From Aurantibacillus circumpalustris (GTDB lineage: Bacteria > Bacteroidota > Bacteroidia > B-17B0 > Aurantibacillaceae), in the NCBI RefSeq assembly GCF_029625215.1, contig NZ_CP121197.1, positions 2,046,001 through 2,110,000 on the forward strand: a stretch of 64,000 bases of DNA, read 5' to 3'. The translations under genes were made by a program, and so were the position numbers. Shown one piece after another: positions 6,889 through 34,228 of this stretch. Position 1 is the first letter of the stretch. The number at the start of each line of letters is the position of its first letter. The notes beneath the pieces were generated by a model, which saw only the letters and a program-made list of their open reading frames with translations, ran no database searches and was not told the DNA's origin.

Positions 6889-7626
6889 TTAGTTTATTTC
6901 ACAAGAAGAAGGGCTGCGTTCTTCCTCCATGGCAATTGCTTGAGGGAATAAAATATTATTTTCTAAATGAATGTGTAAATGCAAATCATTTTCAAACTCC
7001 TTTAAAAGAGCATAGGTGACGCGAAAAGTATTACAGGCTTCTTCAGGTGGCGTATAGTTATTAGTCAGTTCAGAAATTTTCCTGAAACGTTCTCCTTCAG
7101 TATCATGTTCCTCTTTCATCATGGCAATAGGATTTTGAACGGTTCCAAAATGTGGAGCAAAAGAATCGTCGGCAGTTGCTACTGCCATTTTTCTAATATA
7201 TGGGAATAAGATTAACTCCTCTTTCTTCATGTGAGCAGCTAACATTTGAGCCGACTCATTAAAACTATCCATGATTTCTTTTAGTTCTGGAAACATTTTA
7301 CCGTGTACGGAGTTAATTTTAGAAAGATACTGCTGAAGAACTGGTGTTTTCTCCTGTACATAACGGTGATGTTTCTTTTCTATATAATCAGCCAGTAAAT
7401 CTATTGGCCACGCTTGATAATCTATGACAGAATTTTCTAAACTTTTCTCTATGTCTAATAAGTCTTTAATGAGTGCGTTTTCGTTGATATTCTTTTTTTC
7501 ACAAACATCGTGTATGGTTTGATTTCCTTTACAACAAAAATCGATTCCATATTTTGCGAATACTTCAGCAGTACGATAATCCTGAGCTACCAGCTCTCCA
7601 ATTACATTTTTTTCAGTGATTTCCAT
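6889..7626 (-). CDS. ric: Di-iron iron-sulfur cluster repair protein (RIC/ScdA/YtfE)
   Basis: This 245-aa protein has the ScdA N-terminal domain (residues 5-60, with the vicinal Cys31-Cys32 in GIDFCCKG) followed by a hemerythrin-like four-helix domain. His and Glu ligands are visible in EKKHHRYV, HMKKEELILFPYI, MKEEHDTEGERF and HIHLENNILFPQA. RIC proteins restore Fe-S clusters damaged by NO or oxidants. The length is normal for a two-domain RIC. It lies 15 nt after an Rrf2 regulator gene and 29 nt before nrdJ. An NsrR-type regulator next to ric is a classical NO-stress arrangement. Confidence 0.93.
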   Translation of the reverse strand: MEITEKNVIGELVAQDYRTAEVFAKYGIDFCCKGNQTIHDVCEKKNINENALIKDLLDIEKSLENSVIDYQAWPIDLLADYIEKKHHRYVQEKTPVLQQYLSKINSVHGKMFPELKEIMDSFNESAQMLAAHMKKEELILFPYIRKMAVATADDSFAPHFGTVQNPIAMMKEEHDTEGERFRKISELTNNYTPPEEACNTFRVTYALLKEFENDLHLHIHLENNILFPQAIAMEEERSPSSCEIN

Positions 7627-7641
7627 TTTATATATTTTTAG

Positions 7642-8079
7642 TTAGTATTTTAAACAGGTTAAACCTTCTTTTAATCCACTTGTCATTTCTTGTAGACTTG
7701 TGTTTTGAAGCATCGATATGAGGTCACTCTTTATATATTTGTACTTATCGTGAACTGGGCAAGGATGTTTTTGCGAACAAGTTTTAAGGCCCAATACACA
7801 AATTTTATCACTAAAACCACCATCTATCGCAATCACAATATCCTCCAGACGTATTTTATTAAGTTGTTTTTTATCTATTTCAAAACCGCCCATGGCCCCT
7901 TTAATAGAGTTTATTATTTTATGCTTAACCAGCATTTGTAGAATTTTGGCAGTAAATGCTTCCGGCGATTCTATCTCAGCTGAAATATCTTTCAGATTTG
8001 GTCTGTTTTCTTCAAGCGATTGGGCTGCTACATAAATAGTAGCGCGTATTCCGTATTCGCAGGCCTTCGAAAATATCAT
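7642..8079 (-). CDS. Rrf2-family regulator with three-Cys Fe-S motif (NsrR-like)
   Basis: This 145-aa protein has the Rrf2 winged helix (residues 1-80; SPEAFTAKILQMLVK recognition region, then the KGAMGGFEI wing). A cysteine loop CVLGLKTCSQKHPC follows, spaced C-x6-C-x5-C, close to the cluster-binding loops of NsrR and IscR. Such regulators lose DNA binding when NO attacks the cluster. It is paralogous to the gene at 33723-34157 (same cysteine spacing and PCPVHDK sequence). It heads an operon with ric and nrdJ. A 9-bp-arm palindrome just upstream of its own -7 element implies autorepression. NsrR-like function is inferred and IscR-like sensing remains possible. Confidence 0.88.
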   Translation of the reverse strand: MIFSKACEYGIRATIYVAAQSLEENRPNLKDISAEIESPEAFTAKILQMLVKHKIINSIKGAMGGFEIDKKQLNKIRLEDIVIAIDGGFSDKICVLGLKTCSQKHPCPVHDKYKYIKSDLISMLQNTSLQEMTSGLKEGLTCLKY

Positions 8080-8091
8080 TGTGTTTTTTTA

Positions 8092-8136
8092 CAAATTTAG
8101 GGTAAATAATTCATATCGGATGTATTTATCCGATAT
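8092..8136 (-). promoter_or_regulatory. Rrf2 operator plus -7 element of the Rrf2-ric-nrdJ operon
   Basis: The -7 element TAAATTTG (minus strand, 8092-8099) is a perfect TAnnTTTG. The palindrome ATATCGGAT-N6-ATCCGATAT (8113-8136) is centred 29 bp upstream of it. The same arms with the same 6-bp spacer occur before the nor operon at 14223-14250. The neighbouring Rrf2 protein is the natural ligand, probably as repressor. Confidence 0.75.
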
Positions 8137-9373: not shown

Positions 9374-10582
9374 TTATGCAGGTTTTAGTTTTCTGATTTC
9401 TTTTCCTAAAAATTTTCTTCGAGTTAGTTCGTTACGTAACCGTAATAATTCGCTTGTTAGCTGTTCACCAATGGATGAGTTTTCTTCCGCTCTTCTTATC
9501 AAATAAGGAATTGCTTTTTTTACTTCACCATAAGGAAGGTATTTCGAGGAATTATAGCCTTTGGCAGCAAGATTAAAAGTTAGGTTATCGCGCATACCAT
9601 ATAATTGCGAGAACTTTACTTTTTTATAAAAATCGTGAATGGCGTACTTGTCAATAGTAGCAACGGCCAATAGATTACTTTGCTCATTATGAGAGGCAAT
9701 GCAGGTATATACCCATTCGTGTTGACTTAAACAGATCTCAAGCGCTTTGTTGAAGGCAGCGTCTGTTTCTAATTTTGTATTAAATACCGGACTTGTTCTT
9801 CCGTCTTGCAAAGCTCTTATTCTTTCTTTTTCTACATAAGCACCCCTTACGAGTTTAATGCCGGGATGGTAGTTTTTTAATCTAGAATCAGCAATCATTT
9901 TATTCAAATAGATTAAACGATCAGTAAGGTACATTTGCAGGGTGTTATAAATAATGGCTTCCTCCTTGTTATATTTTTCCATCATGGATTCAACAACCAG
10001 ATCGAAAATATCCTGCATATTTCTGTCTTCTGCATCAAAATACACGGTAACTTTATTTTTAGCGGCAGCCGCACAAATAATGTCAATACGCTTTAGGAAT
10101 TTTAAATAGCGTTCATTGTCCGGCAATTTATTATTTAAAGCCAAGCCGTTTAATACAATAAAATAATCAATTTCTTCAAGGCTTGTAAATTTCACACTTA
10201 CGGAATTTCCCGGAGCTTCCTGACCTAATTTAAAAATGTTTTTTACGATAATCATTTTATTTCTCCGAAATACCCTTTGCGTTTTTTCGCCTTCTGCTAC
10301 ATAATCCAAAACAGATTTTACATGGTATGTTTCTAGTTTTTTAATAGTGGCGAATGCTTCGGTAATATTTTCTCCAGAGCAAAACACTTTGAAGACACTA
10401 TTCTTTATTAAACCTTTTAACGGGATGTTATATTTTAAAATACCATTTGCAAAAAAGGATAATGTTTTAACCCACGCAGGATGTTTTAATAGTTTAAATA
10501 TGTAATACGTGAAACGGAGTTCTCTGTTTTTTTTATAACCGAAGGCAGTGCTTAGATTATTTATGTTTAGACTGTTTTCCAT
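9374..10582 (-). CDS. Proline dehydrogenase-like flavoprotein inside the nor operon
   Basis: This 402-aa protein has the PutA-type proline dehydrogenase barrel. Family motifs are visible: VYFDAEDR, GIKLVRGAYVEKERIRA, a SHNEQS strand, KFSQLYGMRDNLTFN and the C-terminal YLIRRAEENSSI that binds substrate. The reaction is proline to pyrroline-5-carboxylate with FAD, passing electrons to quinone. It lies 2 nt after norB and 2 nt before a 60-aa membrane gene, so it is an integral member of the NO-reductase operon. A second, probably housekeeping, copy lies at 59934-61091. The N-terminal half is less conserved than in that copy. Its place in the operon hints at electron supply or a specialised substrate. 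Confidence 0.85.
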   Translation of the reverse strand: MENSLNINNLSTAFGYKKNRELRFTYYIFKLLKHPAWVKTLSFFANGILKYNIPLKGLIKNSVFKVFCSGENITEAFATIKKLETYHVKSVLDYVAEGEKTQRVFRRNKMIIVKNIFKLGQEAPGNSVSVKFTSLEEIDYFIVLNGLALNNKLPDNERYLKFLKRIDIICAAAAKNKVTVYFDAEDRNMQDIFDLVVESMMEKYNKEEAIIYNTLQMYLTDRLIYLNKMIADSRLKNYHPGIKLVRGAYVEKERIRALQDGRTSPVFNTKLETDAAFNKALEICLSQHEWVYTCIASHNEQSNLLAVATIDKYAIHDFYKKVKFSQLYGMRDNLTFNLAAKGYNSSKYLPYGEVKKAIPYLIRRAEENSSIGEQLTSELLRLRNELTRRKFLGKEIRKLKPA

Positions 10583-10584
10583 TT

Positions 10585-11961
10585 TTAATTGGTTATTGGT
10601 GTTTGGTGAGCATAGGTGTTTTTTTCTGGTTTTACTTTATAAACACAACGAAAATGCGCTTTTACTAAGGTGAGTGCTAAAGAGGTTAGACTAATCAATA
10701 AACCCACACCGGCAATTCCAAATAACACAAACCAAAAATGAAGTCCTTCCATCATTTTGCTAAAGGGAACTTGTTGTAGACTCATTTGCCAAATTGCTTT
10801 TTTTATTCCTGCAATATTTAGAGAGAACCAAAAAATTAGTAAGCTGATTTGAGAAAACCAGAACACGCGATTTAGTCTTTGAATATTGAAATTGAAAAAT
10901 TCACATTTAGTAGTTAGAAACTCAAAACACGCAGCAAGCAAAATCATGCTGTTTATTCCAATAGTCGTTCCCATGGCATGTGCAACTGTTACATGCGTGC
11001 CGTGTGTGTAAATATTTATTGCTGGAATTGACATTAATAGTGCTTGACCAATGTTAAGAAAAACCCAAATATCAGCCGCCATTAAAAAGCGGTAAGGAAA
11101 ATAATGATAGTGCTTTTGAGCGTCGGTAACTGATTGACGCCAAGTGTAAATGATGCGCGCAAAAATAATCCACTCTGTCATCGTTACAGCATAACCGATG
11201 TAACGAATGTAGGCTTCTGTGGGCAAGGTATAAACATGATGACCCCAATTAAACATCAAGTTAAATAAGCCAAGAAAATACATGGCGAAAACTAATTTAC
11301 TTCTACCTATGTTAGTATTTTTACTAATCCTTTCCATTAAAAAAAAGGCAGTACCGTATAATATTTGGTTCCACGAACCAACCAATGAGCCATTCACTTT
11401 CCATTGAATAGTCATATCTGTGACAAAATGATCTCTAAAATAGGGGATCATCCAAAGATAATTTTCGATAAAGGTGAATAAGAAAAAAACAATTCCCGTC
11501 ATCCACATCCAAACATAAACTGGCCACTGCTTAATAGTGAGTGCACTTCTTATGAAGTTTACGATAAAGAGCAACCATGCTATTGCAATTGGCAAAGCCC
11601 ATATAGGATTAAACTCCCAGTATTCTCTTCCACCAAAATCTTCAGTGAGATAAGAATATAAAATTCCTACAATAGCTACTAACCACAAACACCATTGGAT
11701 AAAAGCTATTACAACTGAAATTTTCTTTTTGCACACAATCTCTATCCCGCTGTAAACACAACCGCTTGCCCCTAAAATTATCCAAAACATTACTGACGTA
11801 ACATGCATTGGTCTTAGTGATATAAATCCCAGACTGTCTTTTAGATTACCCGGCAACACGTAGTTTAAGCTAGCCAGAACACCTACTAATAAACCAAACA
11901 TTAGCATGATCAGTGCAGTGATCAGAAATAATTTGCCGGTATTTATCTGCTTAAACATCAT
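10585..11961 (-). CDS. norB: Nitric-oxide-reductase-like heme-copper oxidase subunit (NorB variant)
   Basis: This 458-aa protein with about 12 membrane helices follows norC with a 4-nt overlap. Heme-copper superfamily ligands are visible: His53 (RPMHVTS, low-spin haem), His241-His242 (NWGHHVYTLP, non-haem metal) and His328 (THGTHVTVAHAMG, active-site haem). By eye against cNOR, several key positions differ. The second low-spin haem ligand (His349 in Pseudomonas numbering) is Met330. The third metal ligand is Asn190. The two active-site glutamates of helix VI are Val194 and Asn198 (NGSLVGSWNQ). That places it outside canonical cNOR and near the variant NOR families known from sequence surveys. 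NO reduction to N2O is inferred from NorC and the operon. Confidence 0.8.
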   Translation of the reverse strand: MMFKQINTGKLFLITALIMLMFGLLVGVLASLNYVLPGNLKDSLGFISLRPMHVTSVMFWIILGASGCVYSGIEIVCKKKISVVIAFIQWCLWLVAIVGILYSYLTEDFGGREYWEFNPIWALPIAIAWLLFIVNFIRSALTIKQWPVYVWMWMTGIVFFLFTFIENYLWMIPYFRDHFVTDMTIQWKVNGSLVGSWNQILYGTAFFLMERISKNTNIGRSKLVFAMYFLGLFNLMFNWGHHVYTLPTEAYIRYIGYAVTMTEWIIFARIIYTWRQSVTDAQKHYHYFPYRFLMAADIWVFLNIGQALLMSIPAINIYTHGTHVTVAHAMGTTIGINSMILLAACFEFLTTKCEFFNFNIQRLNRVFWFSQISLLIFWFSLNIAGIKKAIWQMSLQQVPFSKMMEGLHFWFVLFGIAGVGLLISLTSLALTLVKAHFRCVYKVKPEKNTYAHQTPITN

Positions 11962-12371
11962 TTACGCTCAATCATGCCGTTTGATTTAATATTAAATTGA
12001 CGCGGATCGGCCAAACCACTTGCGTCGGTTGACTTTAAAAATTCAATTAATTTATTTTCTTCTTCTAGTGTTAGATGAAAAGATGGCATTTGTGTGGTTC
12101 CCGATTTTAGTAGCGCTTTAATCCATAGCTCACCTTTGCCTTTTACAGAATATATGTTGGTAAGATCGGGGCCAAGATAACCTCCTAATCCGTAGAGTTG
12201 ATGACAACTTTGACAATTGTATTTTTGCCATACGAGACGGCCTTCTGAAGCAGTTTTAATGTCAAAACTTGTTTTGGATTTTTCGTTAATGGGAGTTAAA
12301 TAAATGCTAAAGGAATACACTAAAAATAAAGCGGATAGAAACAAAAATACATGTATTGGTTTAAGTTTCAT
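11958..12371 (-). CDS. norC: NorC-like membrane-anchored cytochrome c subunit
   Basis: This 137-aa protein has one N-terminal membrane anchor (residues 7-26) and one c-type haem site C53QSCH57 followed by QLYGLGGYLGPDLTN, the typical NorC sequence after the haem motif. The axial Met is probably in TTQMPSFHLT. NorC passes electrons to NorB. The stop overlaps the norB start by 4 nt (ATGA), so the two are translationally coupled. The gene begins 12 nt after the 601-aa protein gene. No norD or norQ homologue follows, unlike many proteobacterial nor operons. Confidence 0.9.
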   Translation of the reverse strand: MKLKPIHVFLFLSALFLVYSFSIYLTPINEKSKTSFDIKTASEGRLVWQKYNCQSCHQLYGLGGYLGPDLTNIYSVKGKGELWIKALLKSGTTQMPSFHLTLEEENKLIEFLKSTDASGLADPRQFNIKSNGMIERK

Positions 12372-12383
12372 TTTTATTTTTCG

Positions 12384-14189
12384 TTAAACTTTAATAGTCT
12401 GATGAATAGGAACCAGTTCTAATCTTGCTTTTTGTTCAAATAATTGTGCTCTCATTTCAAGAGCTATTTCATCTATCATTTTTAAGTCAGGAATTAGCGC
12501 TGAGTAATACTCGATCCCATTCAATAAGTTTTGTTTAAAAGAAGAGAAATATGATTTTTGTTTTTCAGTGATGCTCTTCAACGAGGTTTCTACTTCCTTT
12601 TTTAAATAATCGACATAAATTTTTAATTCGTTTACAAAAACATGTGGGCGTTTTAAAGAATTCAGGATATTGGTTCTTCCATAAATATGATCTACCATTT
12701 CTTTTAAGGTGTATACGCCTGAAAAATAGGCTAGGTTAGGGCCAGGACAAATAGCTACAGCTTTTAAACCATGAGAAAGTTTGGTTTTATTGACGATGAG
12801 GGACGCGGTTCCTAAACCTTCACATAAACAATCTTTCTCAATAATTTTTGAGATAATGGTTTCTAACTCTATTGGATCTAAAACTTGAGACTGCACCTGT
12901 TTAATTTTTAAATTTTGATATTCTCTTGATGCTGTGCAAATGGGTTTTTCCGTGAACTCTGTATTCGTAGAAAGAAATTTTTTATAACAAGGACTTCCAG
13001 GTCTGTTTTTAAGTATTCTGGTTTTTCTTTGAGTTTCAGAACTACTGTGTTTAAAATTATTAAATGGAATGCCTAAAGGTGAAGAGTGACTTAAAAAATA
13101 ATCACTTTGTTTGGCAGTTGCTAGTTTTTGAACAGTTTCTTCGTCAACCGCTGTTACTTCAGGCACAAGCAAAAAAGGACTTCCCCAACCTGTGGCATCA
13201 AGGTTATAATATTTCATCAAAAAATTGTTTTCATTAGCAGTGCCAATACCACCTTGAACGGATATTTTAATACGCGGAGGTTCCGCAAATTTTTTGCCTT
13301 TAAGTGTAAGTACTTCTGAACAGGTGGTATAGAGTTCGCTAAATAACTTATGGCGATTAAATTTAAACTCTTCTAAAATAGGGCCAAGTAATAAGCCTTC
13401 CGTGGCAAATGCATGTCCACCACAATTTAAGCCTGATTCAATTCTATATTCGGAAACCCACAATCCTTTTTTTGCAAAGAATTTCCCTTGAATTAATGCT
13501 GATCGGTAGTCACTTACTTTTAAAATAATTTTCTTTTTTAAAACGCCATTGATATCCGGATAAAAATCTTCAAATTTTTCACAATAAGTATATAAGCGTG
13601 GATTAAGTCCCGCAGAAAAAACAACAGAAGAAGAAAGGTTGCTTGTAGCAAATCCCCTTAGAGCTGATAAAGCATCGGAATACTCCTGACTTAGGGTCTC
13701 TCCGTTAGAATCATAGTTCACTTTATCAACCTTGGTCATAATGTTAACGTCAACAGATCCAGGGTGTACTAAATTTCTTAAATTTTTTTCTGCCAATTCT
13801 CTTTCTGAGCCTCTGAGGTCGAGTGTCTGACGATACATTGATTTTGCTATAGAGTCTTCTGGAAGCAGCTCGAAGTATTTTGTAAGATCGCTTTCTTTTT
13901 CAAAAGACTGTTTAAGAAGGTGGGCTATATTTTGACTTACTATTTCTTGAACAAGATTTAAATAGGCTCTTATTCTTTTTGCCCGAGAATCCTCAACGTC
14001 TGCTAATATGGGTTTATATACTATGTTGTTATTTCTGCACACAACTTCCCGCATTTGTTCTATTAGGTGATCTTCTACAATAGATAACACTGAGGATATT
14101 CCAAAATGAGCAACCTTAATAGGAGTATCTATTGTAAAACCTAAACCCATTACAGGAATATGAAATGTGTGATCGTGCGTTGATTTCAT
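12384..14189 (-). CDS. 601-aa putative FMN TIM-barrel protein (nitronate-monooxygenase-like), first gene of the nor operon
   Basis: I do not recognise a named family. The first 50 residues (PVMGLGFTIDTPIKVAHFGIS) resemble the opening of 2-nitropropane dioxygenase/nitronate monooxygenase-type barrels. Three later blocks could form their FMN site: GLNCGGHAFATEG (253-265), VQGGIGTANE (311-320) and ATGWGSPFLLVPE (332-344). Residues 60-180 look helical, and the C-terminal 200 residues carry several Cys (CLCEGLG, AICPGP) and a long helical tail. There is no signal peptide, so it is cytoplasmic. It leads the operon with norC, norB and proline dehydrogenase, behind an Rrf2 palindrome. It may oxidise a nitro compound or serve NOR assembly. 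Function unknown. Confidence 0.65.
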   Translation of the reverse strand: MKSTHDHTFHIPVMGLGFTIDTPIKVAHFGISSVLSIVEDHLIEQMREVVCRNNNIVYKPILADVEDSRAKRIRAYLNLVQEIVSQNIAHLLKQSFEKESDLTKYFELLPEDSIAKSMYRQTLDLRGSERELAEKNLRNLVHPGSVDVNIMTKVDKVNYDSNGETLSQEYSDALSALRGFATSNLSSSVVFSAGLNPRLYTYCEKFEDFYPDINGVLKKKIILKVSDYRSALIQGKFFAKKGLWVSEYRIESGLNCGGHAFATEGLLLGPILEEFKFNRHKLFSELYTTCSEVLTLKGKKFAEPPRIKISVQGGIGTANENNFLMKYYNLDATGWGSPFLLVPEVTAVDEETVQKLATAKQSDYFLSHSSPLGIPFNNFKHSSSETQRKTRILKNRPGSPCYKKFLSTNTEFTEKPICTASREYQNLKIKQVQSQVLDPIELETIISKIIEKDCLCEGLGTASLIVNKTKLSHGLKAVAICPGPNLAYFSGVYTLKEMVDHIYGRTNILNSLKRPHVFVNELKIYVDYLKKEVETSLKSITEKQKSYFSSFKQNLLNGIEYYSALIPDLKMIDEIALEMRAQLFEQKARLELVPIHQTIKV

Positions 14190-14205: not shown

Positions 14206-14250
14206 CAAATGTACTACTTATCTTATATCGGATCAACATATCCGATATAA
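14206..14250 (-). promoter_or_regulatory. Rrf2 operator and -7 element of the nor operon
   Basis: The minus-strand -7 element TACATTTG lies at 14206-14213. The palindrome TTATATCGGAT-N6-ATCCGATATAA (14223-14250, 11-bp arms) is centred 27 bp upstream. Its arms contain the 9-bp arms of the operator at 8113-8136 with the same 6-bp spacing, so one Rrf2 protein probably controls both operons. Confidence 0.78.
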
Positions 14251-18451: not shown

Positions 18452-19219
18452 CTACAAATCTTTCCTTTTGAATTTTAGTAATGAAAACCAAAAAGGAACA
18501 ATAATCCAAACAATCAGAATAAAAAAGGCCATAAAAATTCCTAAGGAGGTTCCGAAAAAATTCTTAAAAATAGCGCCAGTATAACCCATCATTGCCGAAA
18601 CATCAAGATGAAGTAAGATGAGAATTCTTCCTAGATCGATAGGATTCAAAGCGGTAATGCCCACCATCATTTTTTCAATAGGATAATCTGCAAACTGGAA
18701 AAGTAAAAACAAGACTAGTCCATCAAACAATAATGCAAAAAACAACCAGAGAAGAATTGAAATTCCAATGCCTTTTGCTTTATCTCGTGTAAGTATGCCA
18801 CTTAAAAATGCAATGGCCACAAATACAGAAGAAACAAAAAGACCAACAAGCACCATCATAAAACCAATACTATCCGGTGCATATATTAAAATAGGAATGC
18901 CTGCCCCAATGAAAAAAGAAAGAGCTAAAGAGGATACTAATCCGAAAAATAAACTCAACCAAATTTTAGCTCTTTTAATAGGCTGACTTAATAACAGCTC
19001 AATAAACTCAGAACTATTGTAGAGGTAAATGGTTGAAAAAATAACAGATACTAAAGGAACCGTAAGTAAAATAACATTCAATAAGGTCAAAACACCTTTG
19101 TTGCTGTTGTCTTCCAGACTAAATACACCCCAGGACAACACGGCCAAAATAAGGGTGTAAATTAAAACAATTTTGTTTTTGAGTATATCTAAAACAATAA
19201 ACTTAATAATTCTATTCAT
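18452..19219 (-). CDS. nosY: NosY, ABC transporter permease for NosZ maturation
   Basis: This 255-aa integral membrane protein has six predicted helices and the ABC-2-type permease layout, with an early cytoplasmic element (FIELLLSQPIKRAKIW). With NosF and NosD it forms the NosDFY complex that supports assembly of the CuZ site of N2O reductase. It overlaps nosF by 8 nt and is the last gene of the nos operon. The length and helix pattern are normal for NosY. Assignment rests mainly on its place in the operon and its ABC-2 features. Confidence 0.88.
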   Translation of the reverse strand: MNRIIKFIVLDILKNKIVLIYTLILAVLSWGVFSLEDNSNKGVLTLLNVILLTVPLVSVIFSTIYLYNSSEFIELLLSQPIKRAKIWLSLFFGLVSSLALSFFIGAGIPILIYAPDSIGFMMVLVGLFVSSVFVAIAFLSGILTRDKAKGIGISILLWLFFALLFDGLVLFLLFQFADYPIEKMMVGITALNPIDLGRILILLHLDVSAMMGYTGAIFKNFFGTSLGIFMAFFILIVWIIVPFWFSLLKFKRKDL

Positions 19220-19925
19220 TATTTTTTTGTTTTAAAACATGAGCAATTGCCTTCGAAATCTTTTCTTCTCCTGTAGAAGTTTGAAGTTCTGCAATGGTTT
19301 TGTGAAATTCCACACAACCTTCTTGCATAAAAATGAGCTGAGTAATTAAGTCATCCAATTCACTAAGTAAATGTGACGTGATCATTATTAATTTGCCTTT
19401 TTGTTTTTCAGACACTATTTTTTCTTTTAAAATTTCAGAAGCCAAGGGGTCTAGACCTGCTGTGGGTTCGTCTAAAATTAAAATGTCGGGGTTAAACAAA
19501 AAAGCTAATGTAGCGCTAACTTTTTGAGTGGTACCACCAGAAAGCGTGCGCATCTGTTTATTAAAAATACTTTTTAATTTAAACTCATTAAGTAGGTCTT
19601 CATCTAAGGTTTCGTGTGACGATCGGATATCCTTGATCATTTCAACAATTTGACCAACCGACATGTTATCGGGATACCGGCCAATTTGAGGCATGTATCC
19701 AATGTTTTTACGGTATTCAAAATTTTTAGTAATCAGTTGCTCTTTTACTTTAATAGTTCCTGTGGTGGGGATAACCATCCCCAAAATACTTTTGATTAAA
19801 GTGGTTTTACCACAGCCATTAGGACCAATAAGGGCAATACACTCACTACTTTTTAGGTCGAGGTTAATATCCTTGAGCACTTCAAGTTTTCCAAAAGATT
19901 TATAAAGTTGATTAATTTCTATCAT
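19212..19925 (-). CDS. nosF: NosF, ABC ATPase for NosZ maturation
   Basis: This 237-aa ABC ATPase shows Walker A GPNGCGKTT, signature LSGGTTQKVS, Walker B ILILDEPTAGLD and the switch His in MITSHLL. It energises the NosDFY complex. It overlaps nosD (4 nt) and nosY (8 nt), so the three are translationally coupled. The short C-terminal extension (STGEEKISKAIAHVLK) is typical of NosF. Nothing is unusual. Confidence 0.93.
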   Translation of the reverse strand: MIEINQLYKSFGKLEVLKDINLDLKSSECIALIGPNGCGKTTLIKSILGMVIPTTGTIKVKEQLITKNFEYRKNIGYMPQIGRYPDNMSVGQIVEMIKDIRSSHETLDEDLLNEFKLKSIFNKQMRTLSGGTTQKVSATLAFLFNPDILILDEPTAGLDPLASEILKEKIVSEKQKGKLIMITSHLLSELDDLITQLIFMQEGCVEFHKTIAELQTSTGEEKISKAIAHVLKQKNNE

Positions 19926-21154
19926 AAATTTAATGCTCGCATTAAAGGTGAATTATCAATAAAATTATCGGGAGTTAAGCTCGGCATTAATTTTTCAGAC
20001 TTATCTATAAGAGTTACAAAAAAGCTTCTGAATAAAAGCATGGCCGGAGGATTTTGTTCTACGATGACAGAGAATATACTTAGCGGATGATAAGGCACGT
20101 CGCCAATTTTATCTTTGTTCAAATCATAACCCTCGTATTTATCCCAATAGTTACTATTAAATGTATTAAGCACCAAGCTACCGTTGGTGCCAATATCAAA
20201 AGTATTACCAACGAAGTTATTATTCGTAATTTCATTATCCATACAACTAGCCTGTATTTTCATAGCCCAACCATTAGAATCAAATTTATTTTTGTCAACT
20301 TTAATTCTGTTTGTTCCTTCCATAAATATGCCAGAAGTATTTTTAGAAAATGTATTTCCGGAAATAAAACTGTCGGATATTTCTTTTAGTAATAATCCAA
20401 AAGCCGCATCCCCCCAATTTTCTGTAAAAACATTATTAAACATTTTCACATGATGTGTAAACATTACAGCTACTCCAGCTCCGTTGTGCTTGAAAATATT
20501 TGAAATGTAAGCGTCGTGATTTGAGAACATAAAATGTAAGCCATAACGAATGTTATTCTGAGAAATGTTTCTCCAAATAACAGAGTTGGTGACAAATTCA
20601 AAATAAATACCATCGCGATGTCCTATTATTTTATTCCCTATAATTTGAAGACTATCACTTTTCCAGCAATGAATGCCATTACCTATTTTTTGTTCTTCTA
20701 CCCCCCAACCGGTGATGGTATTGTTTTTAACGATGCACTTATTACAGTATTGCAAATAAATGGCAAAAAAATTATCGTTTAATATATTATCTGAAATGGT
20801 TACATGATGACTTTCATAAACCTTTATTCCACCTGGATCGGTGAGTGTTGCGAAACCAGATCGGTTCACTTTAAAACCACTAATAATAACGTAACTGGCC
20901 TTTACCGATAAAACTTCGCACTTTTTTTCACCATCCAGAATGGGGAAATCAACACCTATAAAATGTATGGACTTAGTAATGATTAAATTACCTTCTTTGT
21001 AATGCCCTGCATGAACATAAACTGTATCACCGTCTTTACAGGCTGCCAGAGCTGATTTTACAGTGGTGTATTGGCGTGTTGCCCCAACGTGTAGTTGTGT
21101 TGCTTGTATTGGTTTATATAAAAAAACAAAACATATGTAAAAAAGATATCTCAC
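19922..21154 (-). CDS. nosD: NosD, periplasmic beta-helix copper-site maturation protein
   Basis: This 410-aa protein has a Sec signal peptide (1-18) and then a long right-handed beta-helix with repeated short strands of the form NxIxNN (residues about 60-330), the CASH/NosD repeat. NosD binds the NosFY complex on the periplasmic side and helps load copper-sulfur into NosZ. It lies 2 nt after the nosL fusion gene and overlaps nosF by 4 nt. Its length is close to that of other NosD proteins. Confidence 0.92.
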   Translation of the reverse strand: MRYLFYICFVFLYKPIQATQLHVGATRQYTTVKSALAACKDGDTVYVHAGHYKEGNLIITKSIHFIGVDFPILDGEKKCEVLSVKASYVIISGFKVNRSGFATLTDPGGIKVYESHHVTISDNILNDNFFAIYLQYCNKCIVKNNTITGWGVEEQKIGNGIHCWKSDSLQIIGNKIIGHRDGIYFEFVTNSVIWRNISQNNIRYGLHFMFSNHDAYISNIFKHNGAGVAVMFTHHVKMFNNVFTENWGDAAFGLLLKEISDSFISGNTFSKNTSGIFMEGTNRIKVDKNKFDSNGWAMKIQASCMDNEITNNNFVGNTFDIGTNGSLVLNTFNSNYWDKYEGYDLNKDKIGDVPYHPLSIFSVIVEQNPPAMLLFRSFFVTLIDKSEKLMPSLTPDNFIDNSPLMRALNL

Positions 21155-21156
21155 TA

Positions 21157-22176
21157 TTAATGGTTAATGTCCTCCCAACCAATCGTAGTTACTGAAAGTT
21201 TTGTGGCGTAAACAGTGGCGCTGTCCTTGTTAGTAAAAGCTGCGATATTTCCTCCCATTGGACTTCCAATGTTTTCACTCGCTACAAAATGTAATTTAGT
21301 ATTTGAGGTGAGAGCATGTGGGGCTAAAAAATCTGAAATATAGAAAGAGGCATTTTTTGTTTTGTCTTTATTCTCGCCATCAAACCCAATCATACATCTG
21401 ATATCATCAAATTTATACACTTTGCTTTTTTCCGTAATCAGTTCACAAGCAAAATTTTCTTCAGTAAGGGTCATTTTACAATAATCACAATTGTCTTTGT
21501 TAAAGTTTATTGGTTCAGGACCCTTATTTGTGCAGGAAAATTGAAATAGGGTAGTAAAAGCAATGAGAATTAGTGAAGTCTGCATTTTAGTTTTTTTAAA
21601 TTTATTCATCATGTTAGTTTCTTTTATAACGGTTAATAACATAAGTAGTCCGCTAGCAATAAATAGCCAGCCGCCAATGTGAGGCACAGAATAGGCGCCA
21701 AAATTTAATAGTTGTTTAAATCCAATCAATGGTGGTTGATAAGCCATACCTGGTACAATGATGGCCGCTTTTGGATCGAGATCGTGCCCGTATTGATACT
21801 CCCATTTCCAAAAATCAACCATCGCCACAATTCCAAATAAAACAAATGCTATAAACAGAGTGTACAATAACTTCTTTTTACCAATAAAAGCTGTGATGAG
21901 CGAAAAAGCAGCAAAAAAAGCAATAATGTAGACTAGGATTGTAAATTCTATAAAGTCTTCATTATGTAGGGTTTTCATACCAATATAATGATTTAATCCA
22001 TTAATAATATCAACGTCACCACCCAAACCGTTAGCAGAAATTGTTAAACCTAAGCCTTCGGGGTATTGCGGTGCATCGAGATCAATTTGCCAAAGCGGCA
22101 CAAACATTGAAACAACAAGTAATATGGCTGTTAATACCAATGCTAATTTTGTAGTTGTGGAAATTGTAGAGTTCAT
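21157..22176 (-). CDS. nosL: Membrane protein fused to NosL copper chaperone
   Basis: This 339-aa product joins two units. Residues 1-185 are a membrane module with about four helices and a periplasmic loop (DAPQYPEGLGL...), like the separate membrane-protein gene next to nosL in other Bacteroidota. Residues 198-339 are NosL: hydrophobic start, lipobox LFQFSC (Cys215), then the Cu(I)-binding region CDYCKM (230-235). ATG codons at 21610-21612 and 21583-21585 could start a separate NosL that keeps a working lipobox, so either a fusion or two overlapping products are possible. NosL delivers copper to apo-NosZ. It follows nosZ after an intergenic terminator. Confidence 0.88.
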   Translation of the reverse strand: MNSTISTTTKLALVLTAILLVVSMFVPLWQIDLDAPQYPEGLGLTISANGLGGDVDIINGLNHYIGMKTLHNEDFIEFTILVYIIAFFAAFSLITAFIGKKKLLYTLFIAFVLFGIVAMVDFWKWEYQYGHDLDPKAAIIVPGMAYQPPLIGFKQLLNFGAYSVPHIGGWLFIASGLLMLLTVIKETNMMNKFKKTKMQTSLILIAFTTLFQFSCTNKGPEPINFNKDNCDYCKMTLTEENFACELITEKSKVYKFDDIRCMIGFDGENKDKTKNASFYISDFLAPHALTSNTKLHFVASENIGSPMGGNIAAFTNKDSATVYATKLSVTTIGWEDINH

Positions 22177-22249: not shown

Positions 22250-24244
22250 TTACTTGGTTACTTCGGCTGTAATTACTTTTGGTATGTTGGTACCTAAACT
22301 AAACTGTAAAGGAACTTTGCTTGTTGCAGGAGATACACGCACATATCCTGACATTTCCTGATGTAAAGCACTACAAAAATCGGTACAATACATCGGTACA
22401 ATACCCACTCTATCTGGAACCCATTTAAGAGTAGATGTTTCTCCTGGCATAATTAGCAGCTCTGCGTTTGTAGAACCTTTAATCGCAAATCCATGAGGCA
22501 CATCCCAATCCTGCTCTAAATTAGTAACGTGAAAATATACTTCATCACCTAACTTTATTCCTTCAATATTGTCTGGAGAAAAGTGAGAACGTATAGCGGT
22601 CATGTACACATGCACTTTATTACCTTCTCTCACCACTTTCGATTCGCCTTCGCCTTTAGTAACATAAGGATTTTTATTTTCCTCTATCTTAAAAATCTTA
22701 ACTTGATTTTTACTAATCTTATCTGCCATAATCATTTGTCCATAATGAGGTTCGCCAATTGTTGGGAAATCTAAAATCATTTGCATCTTATCTCCACTTA
22801 TATCAAACAACTGAGCACTTTGTGATAACTCAGGACCTGTTGGAAGGTATCTGTCTTTAGTAATTTTATTATAAGCGATTAAGTATTTACCAATAGGATT
22901 TCTTGAATCGCCACCAGCTACACATAAGTGACCTACAGAATAGAAAGTAGGAACACGATCTAATACTGTTAAATCTTTCACATTCCATTTTACAATTTCA
23001 GATGACACGAAGAAAGAAGTATAAGCATTTCCTTTTGCGTCAAATTCTGTATGCAATGGCCCTAATCCTGGCTTTTTAACTTCACCATGTAATACAGATT
23101 CATATTTAAGCACATTGATGCCATCATATATACCGTCGAAAGATTTGTCTGCAATAGCTTTTTGCATTTTAGTAAAACTAAAAACAGGTAAGGTAGCAGC
23201 TAATTTACCGCTTCCTACAATGTATTCGCCAGTAGGATCCACGTCACATCCATGTGGTGACTTTGGACAAGGCATCATGTAACAAAGATCTGTAAACTCT
23301 TTACTGTCTAATACCAGAACCTCGGTTTTCATTTCAGAAGTGGCTGAATGTGTAATATCGCTGTAGGTATTATGAGCATATTTCACTGACATCTTTTTTC
23401 CTTTACCAGCTTTTATGTACTCTTCCGCTTTTTTCCAGTTTACAGCCATTACATAATCTTTATCATTTTGTGAAGCATTTACTTCCAAAAGGGTATTGGC
23501 TTGTTCTGTGTTATAACATGAGAAGAAAAACCATCCATGAGAAACACCTTTACCAGCTCGACTTAAATCGAAGTTAACTCCAGGGCATTCTATTTGAAAA
23601 GCAAGATCCATCTTACCATCTTCTTTACCGATGCTGATAAAACTCAAATAGCCTTTAAAGTTTTGTTTGTAACTGCTAATAGGCACATCGCCGTTTGCAT
23701 TGTCAGATGGACCTGAGAAACGAGTTCCTGCTACAACGTATTCTGTATTTTCGGTAAGAAAAGGAGAAGAGTGATTACCAGAACTATTTGGTAATTCAAT
23801 GATCTCGGCAGTTCTAAACGTTTTTAAATCAACTCTGGCCACACGAGGAGTGTTATTTCCATTTACAAAAACCCAACGTCCATCAGCATCTCCATTTGTT
23901 TTAGAAAGTTGCACGTGATGTAAATCATCCCACTGCATAATGCCATGAGAAGTATTCAGCATAGGTTTTGTTTCTTCACTGTAACCCCAACCTTTTTCAG
24001 GATCAACCGCAAATACTGGTATTACACGAAGAAGTCGTCCACTTGGAAGTCCATAAACACTGAGCTGTCCGCTAAATCCACCGCTCACAAAATTGTACAT
24101 TTCATCATATTTCCCAGGTGCCACATATACTTTTGAAGCAGCATCTCCTGTTACAGCCTGACTTGTACTTTTAGGTTTGCAGGATTGAAAAGCAGAGGCT
24201 ACGATTAATCCACCTACTGCTATTGTTATTAAATTGTTTTTCAT
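22250..24244 (-). CDS. nosZ: Nitrous oxide reductase, clade II (Sec-exported)
   Basis: This 664-aa enzyme reduces N2O to N2 in the periplasm. The N terminus is a Sec/lipoprotein-type signal (AFQSC, Cys22), not a Tat signal, which marks clade II. The seven-bladed propeller carries the CuZ ligands, starting with His109-His110 (DDLHHVQLS) and including PCPKSPHGCDVDP and GEPHYGQ. The C-terminal cupredoxin domain has the CuA site: HGF before it, then Cys620-x3-Cys624-x3-His628-x2-Met631. It follows a cytochrome c lipoprotein gene in the operon that also contains nosL, nosD, nosF and nosY. A CRP/FNR-type box precedes the operon. No nosR is seen. Confidence 0.97.
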   Translation of the reverse strand: MKNNLITIAVGGLIVASAFQSCKPKSTSQAVTGDAASKVYVAPGKYDEMYNFVSGGFSGQLSVYGLPSGRLLRVIPVFAVDPEKGWGYSEETKPMLNTSHGIMQWDDLHHVQLSKTNGDADGRWVFVNGNNTPRVARVDLKTFRTAEIIELPNSSGNHSSPFLTENTEYVVAGTRFSGPSDNANGDVPISSYKQNFKGYLSFISIGKEDGKMDLAFQIECPGVNFDLSRAGKGVSHGWFFFSCYNTEQANTLLEVNASQNDKDYVMAVNWKKAEEYIKAGKGKKMSVKYAHNTYSDITHSATSEMKTEVLVLDSKEFTDLCYMMPCPKSPHGCDVDPTGEYIVGSGKLAATLPVFSFTKMQKAIADKSFDGIYDGINVLKYESVLHGEVKKPGLGPLHTEFDAKGNAYTSFFVSSEIVKWNVKDLTVLDRVPTFYSVGHLCVAGGDSRNPIGKYLIAYNKITKDRYLPTGPELSQSAQLFDISGDKMQMILDFPTIGEPHYGQMIMADKISKNQVKIFKIEENKNPYVTKGEGESKVVREGNKVHVYMTAIRSHFSPDNIEGIKLGDEVYFHVTNLEQDWDVPHGFAIKGSTNAELLIMPGETSTLKWVPDRVGIVPMYCTDFCSALHQEMSGYVRVSPATSKVPLQFSLGTNIPKVITAEVTK

Positions 24245-24363: not shown

Positions 24364-24846
24364 TTATTTTGCTCCATCATTTTTAAGCATGAATTCCAAT
24401 ATGTTTCTTGCCTCACCATCTGATAAATTTTGGTTAGGCATACGCACTAAACATAATTCTAACATGGCTTGTGCTTCAGGATCTTTATCAATCATCACAT
24501 CTGGATTCGTAATAAAATTCATAATCCATTCTGGTTTTCTTCTTTTGGTTACACCTTCCCAACCTGGTCCAACTAATTTTTCAGCGGTTAGTTTGTGACA
24601 AGAAGTACATTTTGTGTTAGAGATGCTTTCGCCAGAAGCTACCCATTCAGGGTTCAATTCCTCTTTAAGGTTGATGTTTTCTTCAGTCCACTTACCCTCC
24701 CCACGATCAGGGTCATACGACGGTGGATCAGCAACCATACTTTTTGGAGCTTCATGCGAGCCATTTGATTCTTCTTTTGCTGGACTGCTGCACGCTTCAA
24801 AAATTGCTAGGAAGGCAATTGCGGCTAAAATTGAGATTTTTTTCAT
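24364..24846 (-). CDS. Cytochrome c lipoprotein, probable electron donor to NosZ
   Basis: This 160-aa protein has a lipoprotein signal (lipobox FEAC, Cys19) and a charged linker rich in Pro and Asp (35-65). One monohaem cytochrome c domain follows: KCTSCH haem site near residue 80, KLVGPGWEGV after it, and Met of VRMPNQNLSDGE as axial ligand. It lies 119 nt upstream of nosZ and is the first gene of the nos operon, with the CRP/FNR-type box in front. Clade II nos clusters usually contain such cytochromes, so electron transfer from the quinone or bc1 level to NosZ is the likely role. Confidence 0.9.
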   Translation of the reverse strand: MKKISILAAIAFLAIFEACSSPAKEESNGSHEAPKSMVADPPSYDPDRGEGKWTEENINLKEELNPEWVASGESISNTKCTSCHKLTAEKLVGPGWEGVTKRRKPEWIMNFITNPDVMIDKDPEAQAMLELCLVRMPNQNLSDGEARNILEFMLKNDGAK

Positions 24847-24961: not shown

Positions 24962-26542
24962 TCATGTTTCTGCACATCTAATTCGATTCATTATTTGGAG
25001 GTCTGAATTATAAAAGACACCAACATTATTTCTTCTTTTTTTTGCGCTTTTCAATATTAATAAGGAAACAGTTAGCATGTTCCTAAGTTCGAGTGTTTTT
25101 GGGCTAATAAAATCTTGAAAAGAACGATGACTTATTGTTTTTATCTCTTGCAATAATTCAATTCCTTTATCAATGTTAATAAATTTTGTTAGTATTCCAA
25201 AATTTTCACTCATTATTTTTTTACTCATATTTGCCCATTTTTCATTTAATGAACTGTTGATGTTTTTTTTATAGCTTAAATTCAATTCTTTAAAACGACT
25301 CTGAAATTTTATTTTAGTTATTGTTTTTACTGAAGCGAGGTAGCACCGGTGCGAAAAAACAAGGGCTTCCAACAAAGAGTTCGATGCCAATCTATTGGAG
25401 CCATGCAAACCCGTACAAGCACATTCGCCGCAAGCATATAAATTTTCGAGTGTTGTTTTACCGTATTCATCCGTAACAATTCCACCGCAACAATAATGTG
25501 CGGAGGGTACTACCGGTATCATTTTTTTGTTTGGATCAATGCCTAGATTAAAACATTTGGTTTGAATGGTAGGAAAATGTTTTTGGAAATCTTTTTTCGA
25601 AATATGTCTACAATCTAAGAAAACATGGGGCTCGTTTTGACGCTTTAATTCTGAAACAATGGCTCTCGACACAACATCTCTAGTGGCAAGCTCTTTACGC
25701 ACATCGTATTTCAGCATAAAGGCTTCTCCTTTTCTGTTTCGTAAAACCCCTCCAAATCCTCTTACAGCTTCCGAAATTAGAAAATCGGTACTTATTTTTG
25801 GCTGATATAAGGCCGTAGGATGGAATTGGATAAATTCCATATTTTTTATTTCAGCCTTTGCTCGGTACGCCATAGCAATTCCATCTCCTGTGGCGGTTTC
25901 TGAATTTGTAGTGTGTTCAAAAATTTGTCCCACACCCCCAGTGGCCAACACTGTAATTTTTGAAATTATTTTTTCGATGCTGCCTGTTTTTGATTTTAGA
26001 ATGTAAACGCCGTAACAAGAATTTAAATGCGGTAGTTGTTTTTCGAGTAGATGTTCATTTGTAATTAAGTCAATGGCAATGGTGTTTTGAAGGATTTGAA
26101 TGTTTTTTGCTCTTCTAACCTCTGTAAGTAACTTCCTTTCAATTTCTAAGCCCGTATAATCCCCTTTGTGCAGTATTCTGTTAGTACTATGGCCACCTTC
26201 TTTAGCAAGATCAAACGAATTCAATTTGGTTTTGTCGAACAAAACACCATAAGAAATTAATTCTTTCAACCTTTCTGGTCCTTCACGCACAACAAATTCC
26301 ACTACTTTTTTATTACAACTTTTTCCTCCAGCTTTTAAAGTATCGCTAATGTGTTTTTCAGGAGAGTCTTTTAAAATGTCACTTACAACCGCAATACCGC
26401 CTTGCGCATATTTTGTATTTGTTTCTTTTGATTCTGTTTTACAAATAATAATGATTTTCTTTTTAGGAAACTCTTTGGCGACTTTTATGGCATAACTTAA
26501 GCCCGCAATGCCCGATCCTATGACAAGAAAATCTGTTTTCAT
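24962..26542 (-). CDS. nadB: L-aspartate oxidase
   Basis: This 526-aa flavoprotein oxidises L-aspartate to iminoaspartate, the first step of NAD synthesis. The FAD-binding N terminus reads VIGSGIAGLSYAIKVA, with KYAQGGIAVV and the succinate-dehydrogenase-like HPTAL and RDVVSRAI motifs in order. CGGI and GECACTGLHGSNRLASNSLLE close the flavin site. It follows nadA by 3 nt. No nadC is seen here. The enzyme uses fumarate as well as O2, so it works anaerobically. Its operon promoter carries both a CRP/FNR-type box and an Rrf2-like palindrome. Confidence 0.95.
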   Translation of the reverse strand: MKTDFLVIGSGIAGLSYAIKVAKEFPKKKIIIICKTESKETNTKYAQGGIAVVSDILKDSPEKHISDTLKAGGKSCNKKVVEFVVREGPERLKELISYGVLFDKTKLNSFDLAKEGGHSTNRILHKGDYTGLEIERKLLTEVRRAKNIQILQNTIAIDLITNEHLLEKQLPHLNSCYGVYILKSKTGSIEKIISKITVLATGGVGQIFEHTTNSETATGDGIAMAYRAKAEIKNMEFIQFHPTALYQPKISTDFLISEAVRGFGGVLRNRKGEAFMLKYDVRKELATRDVVSRAIVSELKRQNEPHVFLDCRHISKKDFQKHFPTIQTKCFNLGIDPNKKMIPVVPSAHYCCGGIVTDEYGKTTLENLYACGECACTGLHGSNRLASNSLLEALVFSHRCYLASVKTITKIKFQSRFKELNLSYKKNINSSLNEKWANMSKKIMSENFGILTKFINIDKGIELLQEIKTISHRSFQDFISPKTLELRNMLTVSLLILKSAKKRRNNVGVFYNSDLQIMNRIRCAET

Positions 26543-26545
26543 AAT

Positions 26546-27511
26546 TTAGTTCAATGTTTTTTTAACTGATAAATCAAGCATTCTCTGAATAGGATGCAAT
26601 GCTTTTTTTCTCAGTGATTCGGTTAAGGTTATTTCAGGAGATTCGTTGCTTAAACACAAATAAAGTTTTTCAAGAGTATTCATTTTCATGTAACTACATT
26701 CACTACATGCACAAGTATTATCTTCATTTATTGGAGCGGGTATCAGAATTTTATTAGGTGATTCCTTTTTCATTTGATGTAAAATTCCCACCTCGGTTGC
26801 TATAATAAACTCGTTGCCTTTGTCTTGTTTAAGAAACTTCAGCATAGCTGAAGTTGAACCAATAAAGTCTGCTTTTTCAAGTAATTTTTCTTTTGCTTCA
26901 GGATGAACAATTAGTTTCGCGTTAGGATGTAATAATTGTAAATGCTCAATTTTTTTAATTGAAAAGGCTTCGTGTACCTCGCAAACACCATCCCACAAGA
27001 TTAAATCACGTCCTGTTTTTTTTATCAAATACTTGCCAAGGTTTTTATCCGGTGCAAAAATTATAGGGATATTTTTTGGTATTGAATTAATAATATCAAT
27101 TGCATTGGCGGAAGTACAAATAACGTCGCTTAAGGCTTTAATCTCGGCACTGCAATTGATATAAGATACTACCTTATGGTCTGGATGATTTTTCACGAAA
27201 GTTTCAAATTCTTTGGGCGAACAAGATGCAGCCAATGAACAACCTGCATTTATATCGGGAAGTAAAACCTTCTTTGTGGGATTCAAAATTTTCGCAGTTT
27301 CAGCCATAAAATGAACCCCAGCAAATACAATTATTTTTGCTTTTGTAGATGCTGCTTTTTGCGATAAACCTAGACTATCTCCTATAAAATCAGCAACATC
27401 TTGTATTTCAGGTCCCTGATAATAGTGAGCCAGAATAATTGCGTCTTTTTCCTGCTTTAATTTTAAAACGTGTTCTTGTAATAAGACTGTATTTTTAAGA
27501 GAAAGTGTCAT
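26546..27511 (-). CDS. nadA: Quinolinate synthase
   Basis: This 321-aa [4Fe-4S] enzyme condenses iminoaspartate and DHAP to quinolinate. The N-terminal AHYYQGPEIQDVADFIGDS block and the cluster cysteines in INAGCSLAASC, WDGVCEVHE and CACSECSYMK are all present. The cluster makes NadA a likely NO or O2 target, which fits the Rrf2-like operator in its promoter. The gene starts the nadA-nadB operon. Upstream, 15 nt before the start, lies a perfect TAnnTTTG element. Confidence 0.95.
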   Translation of the reverse strand: MTLSLKNTVLLQEHVLKLKQEKDAIILAHYYQGPEIQDVADFIGDSLGLSQKAASTKAKIIVFAGVHFMAETAKILNPTKKVLLPDINAGCSLAASCSPKEFETFVKNHPDHKVVSYINCSAEIKALSDVICTSANAIDIINSIPKNIPIIFAPDKNLGKYLIKKTGRDLILWDGVCEVHEAFSIKKIEHLQLLHPNAKLIVHPEAKEKLLEKADFIGSTSAMLKFLKQDKGNEFIIATEVGILHQMKKESPNKILIPAPINEDNTCACSECSYMKMNTLEKLYLCLSNESPEITLTESLRKKALHPIQRMLDLSVKKTLN

Positions 27512-33722: not shown

Positions 33723-34157
33723 ATGTTTTCTAAATCCTGCGAATATGCCATCAGAGCCACCATATACATTGCGGTTCAATCTAACCAAGATAGAAGGGTA
33801 GGGATTAAGGATATTTCAAAGGAAATAGATTCGCCCGAAGCATTCACGGCGAAAATTCTGCAGCAATTGTCTCGCGAGAGGATAATCGATTCAGTTAAGG
33901 GGCCAAATGGTGGTTTTGCGATCGACACCGAAAGAATGTCAAAAATTAAATTAAGCCAGATTGTTTTGGCCATCGATGGAGATTCAGTTTACAAAGGTTG
34001 CGGATTAGGATTTAAAGAGTGTTCCGAAAAACAACCTTGTCCTGTTCATGATAAATTTAAAGTGGTAAGAAATGAGCTGCGCAAAATGCTCGAGAGTACA
34101 ACGGTTCTAGAATTGTCGCTGGGACTAAAAAAAGGGTTGACCTTTTTACATAGATAG
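33723..34157 (+). CDS. Rrf2-family regulator, second copy (NsrR-like)
   Basis: This 144-aa paralogue of the regulator at 7642-8079 has the same winged helix (SPEAFTAKILQQLSRERI, KGPNGGFAI) and the same C-x6-C-x5-C loop (CGLGFKECSEKQPC), so it probably carries an Fe-S cluster. It leads an operon with a membrane protein, a truncated haemoglobin, another membrane protein and tryptophan dioxygenase. The palindrome in its promoter implies autorepression. The different outer arms of its operator suggest the two paralogues have diverged in DNA specificity. Confidence 0.88.
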   Translation: MFSKSCEYAIRATIYIAVQSNQDRRVGIKDISKEIDSPEAFTAKILQQLSRERIIDSVKGPNGGFAIDTERMSKIKLSQIVLAIDGDSVYKGCGLGFKECSEKQPCPVHDKFKVVRNELRKMLESTTVLELSLGLKKGLTFLHR

Positions 34158-34228
34158 ACAAAAAATTTAGAGTAATAGAGGATAAAAAGGTCTTAATATA
34201 TTTAATTAACACATAAAAATATACGATC

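Follow-up and report, generated by a model that had tools for sequence, protein, structure and literature searches.

Can a protein that has lost a metal-site histidine and two active-site glutamates of known nitric oxide (NO) reductases still reduce NO? The question is raised by a stretch of 64,000 nucleotides from Aurantibacillus circumpalustris (contig NZ_CP121197.1, positions 2,046,001 to 2,110,000; hereafter the window), in which a gene resembling norB, for the large subunit of the cytochrome c-dependent NO reductase (cNOR), stands next to norC in an operon that also encodes a protein of 601 residues (Table 1). A preliminary description, made from the sequence alone, took the norB product for a divergent NO reductase (NOR) of the haem-copper superfamily with a different active site. 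We find a divergent NorCB-type protein whose site is indeed altered; the part of that description that fell away is the role of Asn190 as a ligand. We conclude that this variant NorB is probably the large subunit of a cytochrome c-dependent NOR, representing a separate C-type haem-copper lineage in Bacteroidota with a rebuilt active site. The case is built on sequence features, conservation, gene order, a common operator and co-occurrence, from which we infer activity, haem ligation, metal content, the reaction and the effect of NO on the regulator.

Altered ligand positions are shared by a family of NorB-like proteins

The open reading frame at 10585-11961 is real and lies on the minus strand, and the residue numbers given for it earlier (H53, N190, V194, N198, H241, H242, H328, M330) are right throughout. 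When variant NorB was aligned by phmmer with the solved cNORs 4xyd and 3o0r, N190 faced the helix-VI His, V194 and N198 faced the two helix-VI Glu, and M330 faced the low-spin-haem His. An L-INS-i alignment of 41 sequences from four groups gave the same register for N190, V194, N198 and M330. Comparison of the variant family with Bacteroidota cNORs by hhalign (E 6e-21) opened a gap at the helix-VI His, with V194 and N198 still facing the helix-VI Glu and M330 the second haem b His; a separate L-INS-i alignment was off by one residue in helix VI, with G191 facing the His. Whichever register is taken, neither His nor Glu stands at the expected places, so helix VI is altered as described. In none of these alignments did we see a His at helix VI, a conserved helix-VI Glu or a His ligand pair for the low-spin haem.

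We scanned GTDB species genomes for relatives and obtained 509 stretches at E 1e-3 or better. All locus counts given here refer to the best 80 of these 509, whose titles name Bacteroidota in 77 cases, Thermoanaerobaculia in one (L106) and no taxon in two (L057, L114). One of the carriers, Planktosalinus lacus CGMCC 1.12924 (L120), is in culture. On the contig titled Thermoanaerobaculia the variant is accompanied by neighbour clusters known from Bacteroidota loci, which may reflect transfer or mis-binning. Frames with at least 38% identity and more than 350 aligned residues, identical ones being counted once, gave an alignment of 83 members, 68 from loci of the GTDB scan and 15 from further genomes, the window's own among them. 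These distinct proteins are 428-506 residues long, stop to stop.

H53, H241, H242, H328, M330, E263, N198, K188, G191 and G195 are invariant (83/83), and S311 and H320 likewise. The retention of His53, His241-His242 and His328, and the replacement of the second low-spin haem His by Met330, both claimed in the preliminary description, thus extend to the whole family. His occurs nowhere within residues 180-204 in any of the 83 members. Position 190 is Asn in 66 of them, Tyr in 14, Ala in two and Ser in one. Because it varies in this way, we rejected Asn190 as a conserved metal ligand, and the proposal that it is the third ligand of the non-haem metal is not supported. As judged from the alignment, the ligand changes are fixed across a family and do not mark a lone mutant, and Asn190 is no obligatory ligand. 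Chance, a pseudogene or an assembly error is ruled out by 83 members with identical changes.

Other parts of the site are retained. Of the three active-site Glu in cNOR, the one on helix VIII persists in the variant as E263. Ser311 and Glu263 align with a Thr and a Glu that belong to the proton route of cNOR.

Among plasmids there were 304 matching records, all below 60% identity; the matches listed, 25 of the 304, are at 26-27%. Two of the plasmid loci, from Rhizobium and Sinorhizobium (L168, L169), are both rhizobial cNOR operons of norCBQD-like order. Their NorB is annotated merely as 'cbb3-type cytochrome c oxidase subunit I', so keyword searches will miss such NORs.

Variant NorB appears to be a C-type haem-copper protein outside cNOR

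Variant NorB matches the COX1 profile PF00115 with 107.8 bits (cut-off 34.8), and its structure model, built from an alignment of 36 chosen sequences, has the common 12-helix fold (mean predicted local distance difference test, pLDDT, 83.3; predicted TM-score 0.87). Both place it in the haem-copper superfamily. The histidine sextet, called a signature of that superfamily in PMC3413370, is incomplete: four of the six His are present, and the helix-VI His and the second haem b His are missing in 83/83. By VIA the model is about equally near a cbb3 oxidase (8smr_E; Z 40.4, 435 aligned, root-mean-square deviation (rmsd) 2.8) and a cNOR (4xyd_A; Z 39.1, 421 aligned, rmsd 2.9). Besides the variant, the genome of the window encodes two further COX1 proteins, which by their motifs are aa3-like and cbb3-like, respectively.

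We built an unrooted tree of 41 sequences from C-type groups only (12 variants, 8 cNOR, 14 qNOR plus Nod, 7 CcoN), in which 15 variants had been listed and three dropped as the same frame under another locus id. It replaced a first tree that included divergent haem-copper sequences and had long branches (L039, L028). The variants occupy their own side of a branch (12/12, support 100/99), and cNOR, qNOR plus Nod, and CcoN are each likewise separate. A further split, with support 100/98, sets cNOR and qNOR/Nod against the variant and CcoN. Approximately unbiased tests rejected a clade of variant and cNOR (p 0.0095) and one of variant and qNOR/Nod (p 0.0091). Long stem branches call for caution here and leave the exact place of the variant unsure, but it does not seem to be a subgroup of cNOR.

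The position beside CcoN could suggest a cbb3-type oxygen reductase with a cytochrome partner. The variant shares with CcoN the C-type fold, a c-type cytochrome partner and a VIA Z that is slightly the highest, though about level with that of cNOR, and it matches both COX1 and, weakly, the ccoN model TIGR00780. However, the cut-off of TIGR00780 is 583 bits and the match scores 33.3. Two canonical cNORs show similar ccoN-type matches below threshold, which makes NCBIfam useless for telling whether a protein is a NOR. In cbb3 the active-site Tyr lies six residues ahead of the His pair. At that position the 83 members have Leu (79) or Met (4), the sextet is not full, and the operator and nosZ links described below point to NO. 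We rejected an oxygen reductase on the missing Tyr and regard this reading as very improbable.

Likeness to cNOR (NorCB of Pseudomonas, Roseobacter and Rhizobium, and Bacteroidota cNOR) amounts to a full-length identity of about 20%, the same fold, a NorC partner with a GGY..PDL-type motif beside norB, His53, the His pair, His328, the helix-VIII Glu and the GRE motif of the proposed calcium site. The variant differs in having neither the helix-VI His nor the helix-VI Glu, in carrying Met330 where cNOR has the second haem b His, and in its separate clade. Thus, of the marks of a cNOR, it has NorC; it lacks the three His of the non-haem iron (FeB) with the helix-VI Glu and the place in the tree, and the maturation gene norD was not found in most carriers.

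The preliminary description allowed that the protein might belong to one of the variant NOR families defined by sequence surveys. Such families (eNOR, sNOR, gNOR, nNOR, bNOR), which are related to B-family reductases, resemble it as NORs or proposed NORs with altered active-site residues. The variant, which has a c-type cytochrome partner and was compared here with C-type groups, probably belongs to none of them. A related reading, compatible with any other, is that the family has already been described in a survey (Murali et al. 2024) as a cNOR subgroup or a nameless haem-copper family. The NOR reference set of a 2025 screen derives from that work, and comprises (PMC12569097) 67 NOR and 865 other haem-copper sequences after manual exclusion of those without conserved ligand binding domains. 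In the open-licence literature searched we recognised no description of the ligand set of the variant; we put the chance of an existing description as modest, although by no means negligible.

NorC and a shared operator point to an NO response

Neighbourhoods were compared across the 80 loci, with flanks of up to 8 kb, many of them shortened by contig ends, and with some names assigned by eye. A norC cluster is present at 76 of the 80 loci. Among the proteins of this cluster (n=80), CxxCH is found in 80 and a GGYLGPDL-type motif in 76, of which at least three resemble the canonical NorC of adjacent cNORs. The NorC of the window, described earlier as canonical, is canonical-like, with CxxCH followed by GGYLGPDL.

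The earlier report of an Rrf2/NsrR-type palindrome over the operon proved correct. With two mismatches or fewer, the whole genome (4.60 Mb) has exactly two copies of the palindrome ATATCGGAT-N6-ATCCGATAT, one before the Rrf2-RIC gene pair and one before the norCB operon, and a reversed control pattern gave no site in the same genome at the same threshold. At up to three mismatches there is one further site within the window, at 42065, with 0.07 sites expected in all. A near-full form of the operator (TATCnGAT, 5-7 bases, ATCnGATA) had no site in the 80 relative loci. The 18-bp core TCGGAT-N6-ATCCGA, at up to one mismatch, gave 27 sites; each of ten shuffles of two-base blocks gave 0-4. Of these sites, 14 precede rrf2, 11 precede one of the norCB operon genes, one precedes a cytochrome gene adjacent to nosZ and one lies elsewhere. 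An Rrf2 regulator thus has an operator in common with NO-response genes, as in an NsrR-type regulon. This arrangement, an apparently autoregulated Rrf2 regulon of which RIC, a protein of NO repair, is a member, accords with an NsrR-like response to NO, the presumed role of the regulator.

A second Rrf2 regulator, with a bacterial-globin-like protein, is encoded at 33723-34944 of the window (plus strand). The two are a possible NO-response pair without the norCB operator.

Variant carriers usually have nosZ and often no canonical NOR

We analysed 87 genomes of the taxonomic family of the window, and 394 genomes sampled evenly from the phylum; G000 belongs to both. Five of 23 matching family genomes (21-23% identity, ccoN or cNOR) and 71 of 79 matching genomes of the phylum sample were not counted as carrying the variant. 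In the family, 18 of 87 genomes have the variant and 20 have nosZ, for nitrous oxide (N2O) reductase, with 17 having both. Hence nosZ is found in 17/18 carriers and 3/69 non-carriers (Fisher 4e-14, uncorrected for kinship). In the phylum sample, where the variant occurs in 8/394 genomes and nosZ in 129/394, nosZ is present in 8/8 carriers and 121/386 others (Fisher p 1.1e-4, likewise uncorrected).

Five of the 87 family genomes (G019, G020, G035, G073, G086) have a canonical cNOR, and a sixth, G069, has a qNOR-like protein. No canonical NOR was seen in 14 of the 18 family carriers, and 13 of the 17 family genomes with both variant and nosZ had no match to cNOR, qNOR or nod. Another NOR or Nod was likewise without a match in five of the eight phylum-sample carriers (G000, G135, G232, G376, G453). 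NirK scored above the cut-off in 5/87 genomes, and G020 has it as a split match that falls short; all six genomes carry the variant. The nirS profile gave weak passes in G040 and G041 (31 and 27 bits, about 110 of 368 positions), which we did not count as nirS.

NorQ and NorD insert FeB into cNOR; in enzyme made without them the haems are present, FeB is scant and there is no activity (PMC9976466). NorD was found in four of the 87 family genomes, each with a canonical cNOR, and those four are among the 18 variant carriers. In a search confined to NorD, there was no match in 14 of the 18 carriers, the genome of the window included. At four of the 80 loci norQ and norD adjoin a canonical cNOR. 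This distribution would fit a rebuilt or absent FeB site. We did not use loss of the Paracoccus NorD docking acids as evidence: positions 216 and 218 have no conserved acid, yet some acid occurs within 213-221 in 39/83.

Weighing other functions

Genes resembling nod lie in the flanks of eight of the 80 loci (L049, L063, L097, L104, L110, L112, L115, L118). They are qNOR-like, with SHNFYW for the His pair (HH to HN) and STLQ for the helix-VIII Glu (Glu to Gln), the changes near the site that PMC3413370 gives for Nod; Nod in Bacteroidota has already been reported (PMC13386854). The presence of these genes raises a reading in which the variant catalyses a different NO reaction, such as dismutation, some other step that forms O2 or N2 in series with Nod, or oxidation of NO. 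Consistent with this, nod is commoner among phylum-sample genomes with the variant (2/8, one a fragment, vs 3/386; Fisher p 0.0035), and Nod too has a His-to-Asn change at its metal site (PMC3413370), the variant having Asn in 66/83 for another of the three His. Beyond that and the core helices, the variant is unlike qNOR and Nod. It has no fused N-terminal domain (PF22085, for the cytochrome-c-like domain, had no match in the 458-residue NorB), its changed His is on another helix, and it retains what Nod has altered, namely both helix-VII His (HH in 83/83) and the helix-VIII Glu, which is Gln in Nod. Moreover, NorC has kept CxxCH, pointing to a need for electrons. Nod is also found without the variant (G187, G195, G254), so the two are no obligatory pair, and neither Nod nor qNOR was found in the genome of the window. 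We think a different NO reaction distinctly improbable. Tyr190 is found in five of the eight variants near Nod-like genes (L104, L110 as L014, L112, L115, L118) and in 14/83 overall.

The losses at the metal site also suggest a protein that is no longer an enzyme and serves as a haem protein for NO binding, for sensing, or for transfer of electrons from NorC elsewhere. One metal-ligand His and two Glu are gone, position 190 accepts N, Y, A or S, and NorD had no match in most carriers, as noted above. On the other hand, H241/H242, H328, E263 and S311 are invariant down to about 43% identity, which would be unexpected of a useless b3/metal site, and the operon of the window has no obvious signalling partner. 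We consider such a loss of catalysis improbable.

Several points count against an NO reductase with a rebuilt site. The helix-VI His and both helix-VI Glu, important for known NORs, are gone, and we know of no NOR without helix-VI His and Glu that has been shown to work. The structure model is least sure, tails aside, at residues 181-190 and 241-250 (block means 60), which is why we draw no ligand geometry from it. The co-occurrence statistics take no account of genome relatedness, one carrier (G052) has no nosZ match, and the operator core is found in just 18 of the 80 loci. The variant may have another job where a canonical cNOR (4/80 loci) or a Nod-like gene (8/80) lies nearby. Finally, that NorD is absent says little about the metal site, because qNOR needs neither NorQ nor NorD (PMC9976466) and one genome that is 86% complete (G035) has a canonical cNOR but no NorD match.

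Gene neighbourhood

Table 1. Genes and operator sites of the window bearing on the variant norCB operon.
Feature	Position	Strand	Remarks
RIC (YtfE/ScdA-type) iron-sulfur repair di-iron protein	6889..7626	minus	TIGR03652 236.7 bits, cut-off 204.7
Rrf2-family regulator	7642..8079	minus	C-x6-C-x5-C motif; putative NsrR-like role
Palindrome ATATCGGAT-N6-ATCCGATAT	8113..8136		before Rrf2-RIC pair
Proline dehydrogenase	9374..10582	minus	next gene downstream of norB, possibly co-transcribed
Variant norB	10585..11961	minus	458 aa, ATG start
norC	11958..12371	minus	137 aa c-type cytochrome, CQSCH...GGYLGPDL; 4-base overlap with norB
601-aa operon partner	12384..14189	minus	no Pfam match; predicted flavin TIM-barrel fold
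Palindrome ATATCGGAT-N6-ATCCGATAT	14225..14248		24 bp, before 601-norC-norB operon
nosY/nosF/nosD/nosL-like genes of N2O reductase cluster	18452..22176	minus	named by eye
nosZ, nitrous oxide reductase	22250..24244	minus	about 10 kb from norB
c-type cytochrome adjoining nosZ	24364..24846	minus	

The 601-residue protein belongs to a cluster found at 34 of the 80 loci. The best VIA match of its model (pLDDT 77) is FabX of Helicobacter pylori (Z 19.6, 315 aligned, rmsd 4.2); by Foldseek alone, DAHP synthases rank first with poor TM-scores. Across 27 aligned sequences, six Cys do not vary. The protein could be an O2-independent enzyme of unsaturated-fatty-acid synthesis. A proline dehydrogenase cluster is present at 23 loci.

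After norC, the commonest extra gene near norCB encodes a tryptophanase-like Beta_elim_lyase protein (44/80 loci; for example L087:3695-5098). Further clusters are rrf2 (38), nadA (30), nadB (30), RIC (21), MauG-like (16), nrdD (10) and nosZ (5; nosZ or nosD, 8). The window itself has nadB/nadA near the NO and N2O genes (24962-27511, minus strand; names partly by eye), as do the 30 loci just counted, and a tryptophan 2,3-dioxygenase-like gene at 35380-36291. Recurring near the NO/N2O genes are also nrdD/nrdG and queD, and the region resembles a kit for anoxic growth.

Discussion

If variant NorB is an NO reductase, as we favour, electrons would enter through haem c of NorC and pass to a low-spin haem b that may be held by His53 and Met330 in place of two His, and from there to haem b3, a high-spin haem that would have His328 as its ligand. 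NO would be reduced at b3, most likely to N2O, with aid from a metal on His241 and His242, perhaps with Glu263, or by the haem alone. The site would assemble without the FeB-inserting chaperone NorQD. Under NO, the common Rrf2-type operator would turn on the operon together with the RIC repair gene, and the N2O formed could be consumed by NosZ.

In its fullest form the proposal is that an NO reductase widespread in Bacteroidota operates with no FeB site of the classic kind. The second metal would either be absent or sit on just two His, possibly joined by Glu263 in a 2-His-1-carboxylate arrangement, the low-spin haem b would have His/Met ligation, NorQD would be dispensable, and the enzyme would supply the NO-to-N2O step in the numerous nosZ-bearing Bacteroidota counted by surveys as lacking nor. 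We advance this tentatively, as a whole that has not quite an even chance of holding.

Organisms with nosZ and without nir, mainly Bacteroidetes and Firmicutes, were predominantly without nor in Graf et al. 2014 (PMC4250227), which considered cNOR and qNOR only. According to the 2025 survey (PMC12569097), genomes with nir plus nosZ and without nor make up 9% of the Bacteroidota that have denitrification genes. That survey could miss the variant family, because it excludes sequences without conserved ligand binding domains. A marine study suggests that there are NO-detoxifying routes yet to be found besides nor and nod (PMC10359470). The variant is possibly the unrecognised NO reductase of these 'nosZ without nor' Bacteroidota. 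If it does reduce NO, some 'non-denitrifying N2O reducers' would be NO reducers too, and predictions from gene content of where N2O is formed and consumed would shift. For bioenergetics, the family would then offer a test, provided by nature, of the ligands that NO reduction truly requires.
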